A DNA stretch of 64,000 nucleotides from Candidatus Mediterraneibacter merdipullorum (GTDB lineage Bacteria > Bacillota > Clostridia > Lachnospirales > Lachnospiraceae). The stretch spans positions 1 through 64,000 of the forward strand of contig DXAL01000048.1 in NCBI GenBank assembly GCA_019117125.1, given 5' to 3'. The translations under genes were made by a program, and so were the position numbers. Below are positions 13,648-45,276 of this stretch, piece by piece. Positions within the stretch are counted from its first letter, which is position 1. Each line of letters opens with the position of its first letter. Under the pieces are notes generated by a model, which did not search any database, had not been told where the DNA came from, and was given only the letters and a program-made list of their open reading frames with translations.

Positions 13648-13719
13648 GCGTCTGTAGCTCAGTGGATAGAGCAATGCCCTCCGGAGGCATGTGCGGCGGT
13701 TCGACTCCGCTCAGACGCT
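13648..13719 (+). tRNA. tRNA-Arg (anticodon CCG)
   Basis: Cloverleaf: GCGTCTG/CAGACGC acceptor, ATGCC-CTCCGGA-GGCAT anticodon arm, GGCGG-TTCGACT-CCGCT T arm. Confidence 0.95.
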
Positions 13720-22005: not shown

Positions 22006-22084
22006 CAGACTGTCCGGTCCGGAAAAGACCGGGGAGGAGTGCCGGGTCCGGCATACATTTAAAAGACACAGCCTGTGGATATAT

Positions 22085-22236
22085 CCGGTCCGTTCCGGAG
22101 CAGGCTGCGAGGAAGACAGGTGAGAATCCTGCACAATACCCGTTGCTGTATTGGCGGAGCGGCGTTTCAGGAAAAGCCACTGGGAGAATTTCCCGGGAAG
22201 GCAGAGACGCCTGCGATGAGGCTTAAGTCAGAATAT
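22085..22236 (+). promoter_or_regulatory. Cobalamin (adenosylcobalamin) riboswitch upstream of cbiM
   Basis: GGTGAGAATCCTGCACAATACCCGTTGCTGTA and B12-box-like aaGCCACTGGGAGAATTTCCCGGGAAGGCAGAGACGCCTGCGATGAGGCTTAAGTCAG. Confidence 0.93.
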
Positions 22237-22290
22237 TCGCTTTTAAATGGACCTGGGGATTACGGGAATATGATCAAAGGAGAAAAGAAA

Positions 22291-34326: not shown

Positions 34327-34630
34327 GTGATTCGGCTGTACGGCAGCCGGAACAAGATAAAGCATAAAAGCGTTGAACGTGTAAAGTAGGGAACCATTTT
34401 CTATCAGAGAGAGAAAATCACCGGCTGCAAGTTTTCTTTAGTTCAGATGGGGACCGAATTTCCCACGGGAGCTGTATCTCGGAACCTTCCTTACAGAAGG
34501 GGAAAGAAGTAGGAGATACCGTAGACTGTACGTTACACAGACCAGAGTGTCCATACTTGACGTATGGGAAACAGGGTGGTACCGCGAGAACATATGCCTC
34601 GTCCCTTATTGGGACGGGGCTTTTCTGTTG
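34327..34630 (+). promoter_or_regulatory. T-box riboswitch leader upstream of pheS (presumed tRNA-Phe sensing)
   Basis: T-box core AGGGTGGTACCGCG at 34573-34586, then terminator GCCTCGTCCCttattGGGACGGGGCTTTT; directly upstream of pheS. Confidence 0.93.
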
Positions 34631-39210: not shown

Positions 39211-39268
39211 GACGGGCGGGGACAGACCCTGCCGCATAAAAAACAGAGAACAGACAGAGGATATTTCG

Positions 39269-39328
39269 GGCTGTCCGGCTTTGCCGGGCAGCCCGCTTTG
39301 CGCTATCTGTATGGGGCTTTACAGATAG
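39269..39328 (+). terminator. Two consecutive hairpins after queA
   Basis: GGGCTGTCCGGCtttGCCGGGCAGCCC, then CTATCTGT...ACAGATAG. Confidence 0.5.
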
Positions 39329-39458
39329 AATATTTCTTTTCTTTTGTGAAAACACTAAAATATAGTAGTAAATCAATAAAATAACGCTTGATTTTCGTAT
39401 AAAATGTGATAATCTATAGAAAAGAAGGATTAGAACCGGAAAATCGGGAGGCGGAATC

Positions 39459-39998
39459 ATGGGATTTGCTTTACAGAAAATATTATATGCTCCGGAAGTG
39501 AAGAACATTCGGAAAAATCTGAATATGAAGCAGAAAGAGCTGGCTGTACTGCTGAATGTTTCCGTCAAGACGGTGGAACACTGGGAAAGCAGCGGGGGCA
39601 GTGTATCCGGCGCTGCTGCCGCTTTGCTCTGTATCCTTCGGGAGCGCCCCTGGCTTCTGGAAGAACTGGAGATTCCGGAGAAGAAGTTTCCGCTGCGCCT
39701 CAGATATATGAACGGGGAACGGCTGTGTACAATCATCGATGTAAATGACAGAGAGCAGCGGGTGATAATTAAAAATTATGTAACGGACCCGCTGTACCGC
39801 GCATTCGGAAGGAACGAGCATCCTTCGTACAGGGATTATGAAGAATTTCTGGAGTCAAGATGTTTCCCGCGGACGCGGGACAAGATGAAAATCATACTGG
39901 AAGAACTAAATCTCCCGTTTTATGACCCGTTTCTGATTATACAGAAAACGGAAGGGAAGATGGCGGAAGATGATTTCCGGATTGAGATTGAGAGATGA
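39459..39998 (+). CDS. XRE/HTH-domain protein fused to a HipA-associated adaptor-like C-terminal domain (putative antitoxin/regulator)
   Basis: NIRKNLNMKQKELAVLLNVSVKTVEHWESSGGSVSGAAAALLCILRERPWLL HTH; C-terminal YEEFLESRCFPRTRDKMKIILEELNLPFYDPFLIIQKTEGKMAEDDFRIEI; ATGA overlap with the next gene. Confidence 0.65.
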   Translation: MGFALQKILYAPEVKNIRKNLNMKQKELAVLLNVSVKTVEHWESSGGSVSGAAAALLCILRERPWLLEELEIPEKKFPLRLRYMNGERLCTIIDVNDREQRVIIKNYVTDPLYRAFGRNEHPSYRDYEEFLESRCFPRTRDKMKIILEELNLPFYDPFLIIQKTEGKMAEDDFRIEIER

Positions 39999-40813
39999 AG
40001 AGGATGGTCAGACTGGAAGAAAACGAATTGAGAACTGCAGCCCATCAGTCCTCAAAAGGAAATCAGCTGAAGTGGGAATCGGACGGCGTATGGTACAAAG
40101 CAGACTATATGGGATATGAAGGTCTGGCGGAGTATATGGTTTCCGGACTTCTGAAACATTCAAACATGAATGAAGAAGAGTATATCCTGTATGAGACAGA
40201 AGAAATCGCTTATAAGAAAGTACGGTACCGGGGATGCCGGAGCGGGAACTTCCTGCCGGAGGGCTGGCAGCTTATTACGCTTGAGAGGCTGTTTCAGAAT
40301 CTGTACGGGCAGAGTCTGTACATGAGTATTTTCAGAATACAGGGCACGAAGGAGCGGGCACGTTTTCTGACAGAACAGGCAGAACAGATGACGGGTCTTG
40401 AAAACTTTGGCGTTTATCTCAGCCGTCTGATGACAATCGACGCGCTGTTCCTTAATGAAGACAGACACATGCACAATATCGCTGTGCTGCGTGACGGAAC
40501 CGGCCGGTATCATTATTGTCCGGTTTTTGACAATGGATGCGCGCTTCTGTCTGATACTCAGATGGATTATCCGATGGGAGAGGATATACTTCATCTCATC
40601 CCACAGGTCAGAGCCAAAACACTGTGCAGTGATTTCATGGAACAGCTGGAGGCGGTGGAAACGCTGTATGGGCAGTCATTAAAATTCTCATACAACGCAC
40701 ATGATATTGAGAGACTGCTGGAGAAAGAACGATATTATCCGGAAGACATAAAGATGCGGGTGCGTGATATTCTGCTTCAGCAGTGGCGCACCTACCGGTA
40801 TTTGTTCGGATAA
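39995..40813 (+). CDS. HipA-like kinase domain protein
   Basis: YGLENFGVYLSRLMTIDALFLNEDRHMHNIAVLRDGTGRYHYCPVFDNGCALLSD: catalytic (NEDRHxxNI) and metal-binding (FDNG) motifs of HipA/CtkA-type kinases. Confidence 0.75.
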   Translation: MKRMVRLEENELRTAAHQSSKGNQLKWESDGVWYKADYMGYEGLAEYMVSGLLKHSNMNEEEYILYETEEIAYKKVRYRGCRSGNFLPEGWQLITLERLFQNLYGQSLYMSIFRIQGTKERARFLTEQAEQMTGLENFGVYLSRLMTIDALFLNEDRHMHNIAVLRDGTGRYHYCPVFDNGCALLSDTQMDYPMGEDILHLIPQVRAKTLCSDFMEQLEAVETLYGQSLKFSYNAHDIERLLEKERYYPEDIKMRVRDILLQQWRTYRYLFG

Positions 40814-40836
40814 AAAATATAGAATAATAAACCAGG

Positions 40837-40870
40837 GATGTCACACCAATCCGGTGGGGCATCTTTTTTT
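40837..40870 (+). terminator. Terminator after HipA-like gene
   Basis: GATGTCACACCaatccGGTGGGGCATCTTTTTTT. Confidence 0.8.
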
Positions 40871-40905
40871 ATTTCATAGGAAATTGCTTTCCTATGAAAT
40901 AAAAA
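40866..40905. repeat. Perfect 18-bp inverted repeat with 4-nt loop
   Basis: TTTTTATTTCATAGGAAA-ttgc-TTTCCTATGAAATAAAAA. Confidence 0.97.
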
Positions 40906-41026
40906 TGCTTCGCGAAATTTACAAAGGCTTTTCTGAAACAAACAAACAGCACATCCGAAAAAGGGTATTGCTATCACGGTAGCGTGATGGCGTATGCTCA
41001 GATATACGGGGAAAGGAAAAGCCTTA

Positions 41027-43915: not shown

Positions 43916-44396
43916 TTAGTCTTTCATCCGAATGACATGATACATGACATCCGCCTCTGCATCTCCCACCGGGATGATGACCCGGTCTTTCAGCACATCA
44001 TCCGGGTCTGTTGCCAGGTTGGTGGTAAAGCAGGGCAGGGTGGAACTGCGGATGAGTTCCCGAAATTCATAATCATCTTTCTGTACGAGAAAGCGCGAGG
44101 CGGGCATCTTCTGACGGCACATCTCATTCCAGAATCCAATCTCAGAGCGCAGCAGAAAGTTAAAGCCATTGAGCATCTCAAATGTTACAAGACCGTGTCC
44201 GGACAGGGCATGGTCTTTTGTGACGCAGATGGAAAGGGTCTCCCGTAAGAACGGCGTACAGTCAAGGGCAGCGTCCTCGGTGGAAAAGGGAAGGATGCCG
44301 ACCTGGCAGGCGCCGGTTTTTACATGTTGGATGATGTCGGGGATGGGGACGAGTTTAACTGTAAGTGAAGAGAAGGGCTTGGAAAAGTAATTGCCT
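43916..44396 (-). pseudogene. LysR family regulator lacking its N-terminal HTH (C-terminal substrate-binding domain only)
   Basis: Reverse frame: FSKPFSSLTVKLVPIPDIIQHVKTGACQVGILPFSTEDAALDCTPFLRETLSICVTKDHALSGHGLVTFEMLNGFNFLLRSEIGFWNEMCRQKMPASRFL...; TAA immediately upstream. Confidence 0.8.
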
Positions 44397-44438
44397 TAAA
44401 AAGATTCCATGAGATGAATAAAAAGGAGGACGAACAGA

Positions 44439-45276
44439 ATGGAATATGTAACGCTGAATAATGGAGTGAAGATGCCGTTGCTCGGATACGGAGTATACCA
44501 GACTCCGCCGGAGGAGACGGAGCGCTGTGTCCTCGAAGCGCTGGAGACAGGATATCGCAGCATTGATACAGCGCAGGCGTACTACAAAGGAAGGCGTGGG
44601 AAATGCCCTGGCAAAATGCGGGATACCAAGGGAAGAGATTTTTGTCACGACGAAAGTCTGGATTGCAAATGCCGGATATGAGAAGGCGAAAGAATCCATT
44701 GCAAAATCTCTGGAAAAACTTCGGACGGATTATGTGGACCTGCTTCTGATTCATCAGCCGTTCGGCGATTATTACGGGACCTACCGCGCGATGGAAGAAG
44801 CATACCGAGAAGGAAAGGCACGCGCCATCGGCGTGTCGAATTTCTATCCGGACCGGTATCTGGATTTGTTCCATTTTGCAGAGGTCAAGCCGGCAGTTAA
44901 CCAGGTGGAGACGCATGTGTTCCAGCAGCAGAAGACAGCGCGGAAATATATGGAGAAGTACGGCACCCAGATTATGTCGTGGGGACCGTTTGCCGAAGGA
45001 AAGAACGATTATTTCCAGAATCCGGTGCTCAGAGAGATTGGCGGGAAATATGGAAAGTCTGTGGCACAGACGGCGCTCCGGTTTCTGCTCCAGAGCGGCG
45101 TGGTGGTGATACCGAAATCCGTGCATAAGGACCGGATGGAAGAGAACTTCGATGTATTTGATTTTACTCTGACGGAAGATGAGATGAAGCGCATCGAGGC
45201 GCTGGATACGGGAGAAAGTCTGTTTTTCTCCCACTATGCACCGGAGACCGTAGAATGGTTTATGAGTCGGGTATAA
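44439..45276 (+). pseudogene. Aldo/keto reductase with frameshift near codon 48
   Basis: [50 protein letters not shown] then shift to [70 protein letters not shown]. Confidence 0.88.

Follow-up and report, generated by a model that had tools for sequence, protein, structure and literature searches.

The window, that is the whole stretch of 64,000 nucleotides of Candidatus Mediterraneibacter merdipullorum DNA analysed here, carries a two-gene module that is probably an autoregulated type II toxin-antitoxin system, in which the functions of HipB and HipS are fused in one protein (ORF1) and paired with a HipT-like kinase (ORF2; Table 1). Toxicity and its neutralisation are predicted; the modelled folds, the catalytic residues, the pairing of the two genes and the predicted operators are documented by comparison with relatives and by structure models. 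In the proposed mechanism, free ORF2 would act as a HipT-like kinase toxin that phosphorylates a cellular target and arrests growth. The HipS-like domain of ORF1 would cap the N-lobe and the Gly-rich loop of this kinase and keep it inactive, as structure, natural fusions and gene decay suggest, and an ORF1 dimer would repress the operon by binding, through its helix-turn-helix (HTH) domains, to a pair of 17-bp palindromes that overlie the promoter, a step for which covariation gives strong support. Without ORF1, both transcription and the kinase would be set free.

Table 1. Coordinates of the module and its signals in the window.
Feature	Position	Strand	Remarks
queA terminator	39267..39295	+	Parts the module from the upstream gene; -28.1 kcal/mol, z -5.0
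Putative operator 1	39352..39368	.	Palindrome core ACTAAAATATAGT at 39354-39366
Putative operator 2	39384..39400	.	ACGCTTGATTTTCGTAT in the window, a degenerate site; spaced 32 bp from operator 1
Probable promoter	39389..39416	+	TTGATT, 16 nt, TAATCT, with TGA before it (extended -10); overlapped by operator 2; read from the sequence
ORF1	39459..39998	+	179 aa; XRE-type HTH and HipS-like domain; proposed antitoxin/autorepressor
HTH domain of ORF1, residues ~9-62	39483..39644	+	HigA2/MqsA type; recognition helix VSVKTVEHWE
HipS-like C-terminal domain of ORF1, residues 74-179	39678..39995	+	AlphaFold2 and Foldseek
ORF2	39995..40813	+	272 aa; short Hip/CtkA-type kinase; proposed toxin
Gly-rich loop of ORF2, S19-S-K-G-N-Q-L-K26	40049..40072	+	S19 aligns with HipA Ser150
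Lys35 of WYKAD in ORF2	40097..40099	+	Presumed ATP-binding lysine; invariant in 46 sequences
Catalytic loop of ORF2, NEDRHMHN	40454..40477	+	D156 and N161 align with HipA D309 and N314
Mg-binding motif of ORF2, FDNG	40526..40537	+	D179 aligns with HipA D332
Intrinsic terminator of the module, after ORF2	40826..40875	+	-16.7 kcal/mol, z -4.2, T run

ORF1 and ORF2 are read in the same direction and are flanked by the queA terminator upstream and by a MerR-type regulator gene at 40994 downstream. An earlier, sequence-only reading of this DNA had described two frames of this length, the kinase motifs LNEDRHMHNIAVL and FDNG in the second of them, and a terminator; both frames and both motifs are indeed present, and terminators were found on both sides of the pair, after queA and after ORF2. 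The ATGA overlap of the two frames, also described there, exists, but may not be a translation start, since ORF2 probably has its conserved start at codon 4 (40004), where a methionine (Met4) is conserved to at least 90% in the alignment of relatives, and in the sister species (locus L032) the codon upstream of this conserved methionine is GTG. The nearest relative of the pair is found in Candidatus Mediterraneibacter guildfordensis, with 92% identity in ORF2 and 96% in ORF1. Further along the window, the region 43922-45276 holds two damaged genes, one for LysR, from which the first 114 residues are missing, and one for an aldo-keto reductase, which is frameshifted near residue 49; both genes are intact between queA and the MarR/ABC genes in the sister species. 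Rfam models also place in the window a tRNA (13648-13719), a cobalamin riboswitch (22081-22258) and, before the phe tRNA synthetase region, a T-box leader (34364-34609).

Judged by its sequence and model, ORF2 is a complete, short kinase of Hip/CtkA type, for which catalysis is predicted. The AlphaFold2 model, made with 46 relatives, has a pLDDT of 92.4, and Foldseek ranks CtkA of Helicobacter pylori first (probability 1.00, TM 0.63), ahead of HipT, Legionella HipT and HipA; structure prediction thus agrees with the kinase fold previously read from motifs. CtkA is also the sole credible solved relative by sequence (profile search against PDB, E=4e-4). ORF2 and Escherichia coli HipA can be brought into register at S19=S150, G22=G153, Q24=Q155, K26=K157, D156=D309, N161=N314 and D179=D332. 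HipA autophosphorylates at Ser150 (PMC10627512), and the equivalent of this serine as well as all catalytic residues are kept across the 46 kinase sequences, S19, K21, G22, Q24 and K26 of the Gly-rich loop being invariant. Since ORF2 begins at the Gly-rich loop (residue 19), the N-subdomain 1 of HipA is absent from it, as it is from HipT (PMC8262856). In Pfam searches the Couple_hipA domain was not found in ORF2 and HipA_C stayed below its gathering score (19.1 vs 30.5 bits); the kinase does lack the N-terminal part of HipA, as had been claimed.

The first 70 residues of ORF1 form an HTH that is nearest to HigA2 and MqsA, and not to HipB. Pfam HTH_3 matches above its cut-off (E=2.8e-6), PDB profiles give HigA2 (5jaa) at E=2.2e-9, MqsA at E=1e-6 and HipB at just E=0.02, and Foldseek returns HigA2 with a probability of 1.00. 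The extra C-terminal domain that had been postulated behind this XRE-type HTH is present in the AlphaFold2 model, whose mean pLDDT is 93.5 over the whole protein. Its residues 74-179 have no convincing Pfam family match. Foldseek aligns them with Legionella HipS (8ezr_A) at a probability of 0.80, a TM of 0.65 over HipS and an rmsd of 3.4, with a weak E-value of 0.49; HipS is the only informative non-HTH fold for this part among the PDB matches listed. SaPI2 Stl, which bears on the HTH and Stl-like domain that mark the hipRG antitoxin, is matched by ORF1 at a low probability (0.28), and a comparison with BFVD returned mostly HTH matches. Profiles of the domain (35 sequences, then with 12 diverse adaptors added) reached an hhalign probability of <1% against HipA N-subdomain 1 profiles, a test with HipA N-domains as its only targets; the HipA sequences that a PF13657 search drew from 200 Bacillota genomes were too few for deepening the HipA profile. 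Because this profile-profile comparison found nothing, HipS likeness is claimed here by fold and context alone.

The lack of a sequence signal to HipA N-subdomain 1 and the weak Foldseek E-value are also what one would see if the C-terminal domain were unrelated to HipS, the fold being a chance or analogous one, the kinase being inhibited through another surface, or the HTH alone neutralising the kinase as HipB does in HipBA. We regard this as unlikely, given how the domain behaves among relatives: in L135 and L136 domain and kinase make up one chain with the domain first, like N-subdomain 1 in HipA, elsewhere it stands beside the kinase in the absence of any HTH, and three loci (L064, L080 and L122) have lost the HTH while the HipS-like domain and the kinase are intact. 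Together with the fold match, these HTH-less and kinase-fused relatives bear out the proposal of the sequence-only reading that a DNA-binding and a small HipS-like domain are fused in ORF1.

More generally, a comparison of relatives presents the HipS-like domain as the constant partner of the kinase and the HTH as the variable part. The domain is found behind a resolvase-type HTH (L143, L145), behind another XRE (L150, L151) or behind a different N-terminal extension of coiled-coil appearance (L149, L016). It is also encoded as a protein of its own, upstream or downstream of the kinase gene (L146, L147, L148), and stands alone on Bacillus and Streptococcus plasmids (L193-L195) and, beside a kinase, on the conjugative plasmid pBpOF4-02. 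In single proteins of ~428 aa (L137, L138, L139, L140), a Hip-type kinase is preceded by a resolvase-type HTH and one half of the cap domain; at L140, the missing half is apparently encoded by the next gene. A tree of the kinases places all 19 sampled modules with the HTH fusion of the window type in one group (SH-aLRT 96). Cap-like domains were also observed fused ahead of another domain at L057 (8060-8875) and L153 (1702-2502), in the latter case directly after a kinase gene; this other domain is presumably of DUF2442 type. The genome of the window holds a second HipS-like stretch (G000:C44:39637; L142 1739-2341), a 201-aa open frame that is apparently a remnant, and no kinase match was found near it in the fetched 4.5 kb.

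Decay among relatives follows the order that one would predict for a harmful kinase held in check by the cap. Counting only breaks away from contig ends, the kinase is damaged and ORF1 intact in eight loci (L015, L078, L089, L091, L112, L119, L124 and L127), the HTH has gone from the three loci named above, and the HipS-like domain is broken next to an intact kinase at L046 only, by a frameshift that is possibly an error. As many loci come from metagenome-assembled genomes (MAGs), some frameshifts may be assembly errors. In L089, L124 and L127, the kinases lack their first ~66-75 residues, which include the Gly-rich loop and the ATP lysine, and ORF1 is intact; from their sequences, these are possibly inactivated kinases retained alongside the antitoxin.

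Strong evidence from sequence comparison that ORF1 represses its own operon comes from paired palindromes whose sequence switches with two residues of the recognition helix; both the pairs upstream of ORF1 and this predicted, helix-linked switch are new here. In relatives, two 17-bp palindromes lie upstream of ORF1, 32-33 bp apart, with the second over the promoter, and this spacing is seen in 32 of 53 non-redundant upstream regions, when shuffles give an expectation of ~5 per distance. Operator 1 of the window belongs to such a two-site array in relatives and is conserved as TACTAAAATATAGTA in the sister species, and the counterpart of operator 2 in L032 reads ATACTTGAATTTAGTAT. The probable promoter, which a simple consensus promoter scan did not call, has the counterpart TTGATT-16-TATACT in L037. 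Of 23 helices of the P..R type, 18 have a called site, always with the half-site ACCAT; of 19 of the K..R type, 18 have one, always with ACCCT. K..H helices go with TACTA in five of six cases and R..N helices with ACCAC in 2/2. The contrast of P..R/ACCAT with K..R/ACCCT gives a Fisher p of 2e-10, kinship being ignored. On the best tree, the helix residue and the operator each change six times; the independent-pairs test, which was limited to well-supported (starred) branches, contains a single pair and is thus underpowered. Repression of its own operon by the antitoxin, one of the marks of type II systems, is accordingly predicted in silico, by the palindrome pairs and by the covariation of helix and operator.

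An HTH protein and a kinase in one operon, on the chromosome and under strong purifying selection, could also belong to a signalling pair, in which ORF1 would be a transcription factor controlled by ORF2 through phosphorylation or binding, with a regulon beyond its own operon. This reading appears improbable to us, as the kinase decays while ORF1 remains, the paired operators, looked for upstream of ORF1, sit on the module's own promoter, and the module occupies varying places in the genome with no neighbour conserved.

The ORF1-ORF2 pair is a real unit, and not a chance association. ORF1 lies directly upstream in 60 of 61 ORF2 relatives on genome contigs, the exception being a kinase fragment, and a reverse fetch with the C-terminal domain found kinase sequence adjacent in all 30 sampled strong-match loci, some of the kinases being damaged. 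Homologs of ORF2 thus do not routinely occur without ORF1, a situation that would have spoken against the earlier proposal of a module. With dN/dS values of at most 0.15 for ORF1 and of 0.04-0.23 for ORF2 (most values 0.04-0.15), both genes are estimated to be under strong purifying selection. The module sits at unrelated chromosomal sites with neighbours that vary between species, and no third conserved gene recurs beside the pair among the loci compared. At L032 (5840-6151), an orphan hipB is found next to the module, and G019 has an intact hipBA at the same spot (L094 703-2149); it seems that one toxin-antitoxin module takes the place of another at this site. A canonical hipBA is also present in the genome of the window (G000:C32:60054; L093).

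The C-terminal domain of ORF1, in any form, occurs patchily, in 56 of 299 Lachnospiraceae genomes (one per genus), and the kinase was detected at E<=1e-10 in 3 of 300 Bacillota genomes, two of them Lachnospiraceae. One example, L. eligens EUBELI_RS13140/RS13135, is annotated just as 'helix-turn-helix' and 'hypothetical'. A phage origin is not supported, because scans of viral contigs with ORF2 and with the ORF2 alignment gave no relatives and matches in phage collections are mostly short unannotated fecal contigs.

The patchy distribution, together with the repeated swapping of the DNA-binding part, would also suit anti-phage abortive infection, where ORF1 senses infection, or a phage protein degrades or displaces ORF1, and the kinase is released; such a role would not contradict the toxin-antitoxin reading but supply it with a trigger. 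In its favour, ORF2 belongs to the same kinase superfamily as the PADLOC candidate PDC-M03, which pairs a kinase (A) with an adaptor (B), and partially matches PDC-M03A (3.9e-9, residues 77-188), and PDC-M03B weakly matches the adaptor domains of some distant relatives (0.0019 for L150). However, ORF1 of the window matches no PDC-M03B model at E up to 1, its chromosomal neighbours are ordinary, with no recurrent gene resembling a defence partner, and PDC entries are computational candidates. We therefore hold the anti-phage role to be possible but doubtful. With similar reserve, one may tentatively picture a large, unnamed Bacillota superfamily of toxin-antitoxin systems, in which a constant HipS-like cap and a Hip/CtkA kinase are combined with a swapped DNA-binding or sensing module (HigA2-type HTH, resolvase-type HTH, another XRE, coiled coil or none), with a helix-operator code in the HTH branch and kinases triggered by infection.

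If the toxin-antitoxin reading is true, Hip kinases gain an organisation with repressor and kinase cap as one protein, in a module often met in Lachnospiraceae of the human and animal gut. Because cap and HTH can be separated by a cut, the module offers a clean test of HipS-type cap function, and with the recognition-helix/operator code a range of natural repressor specificities is at hand.

Among known systems, canonical HipBA shares with the module of the window an HTH partner encoded upstream, the Hip kinase motifs and the Ser150 equivalent. It differs in that the window kinase is ~170 aa shorter and devoid of Couple_hipA and the partner has an extra domain; the absence of N-subdomain 1 and the added domain agree with the sequence-only reading, which had set the module apart from HipBA. 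Membership in HipBA is ruled out, as ORF2 has no Couple_hipA match and its HipA_C match is below threshold; both models do match the canonical HipA that the genome of the window also encodes. CtkA of H. pylori, the closest solved fold to ORF2, is ~14% identical. The Hip kinases of the hipRG, hipIN, hipJS and hipMP families (Gerdes et al. 2021, PMC8262856) are likewise short, at 279-321 aa, and their putative antitoxins are two-domain or HipS-like, as in the module. HipN, HipS and HipP are encoded downstream, and HipN has a HIRAN domain (PMC8262856). HipG is described as being without Ser/Thr at the Gly-rich loop (PMC8262856), and the module is ruled out as a hipRG member by this description, S19 being invariant in 46 sequences. 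A fusion of HTH and HipS is not among the ten organisations of the survey by Gerdes et al. (PMC8262856), which drew on high-scoring HipA homologs, a level that the window kinase probably does not reach, and our literature search found no description of this gene pair. HipBST (E. coli O127, Legionella) and the module have in common a short kinase without N-subdomain 1, a partner of HipS fold, an HTH repressor and the promoter-proximal order of DNA-binder, HipS and kinase. HipBST consists of three genes with a separate HipS, whereas the module of the window has two, with HTH and HipS-like domain in one polypeptide; moreover, its HTH is HigA2/MqsA-like, its kinase is nearer to CtkA by sequence and fold, and the likeness of its cap to HipS goes without sequence-level homology (HipA N-domains being compared). 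The module thus fits none of the Hip families of the 2021 survey and is a variant of the Hip/HipBST organisation.
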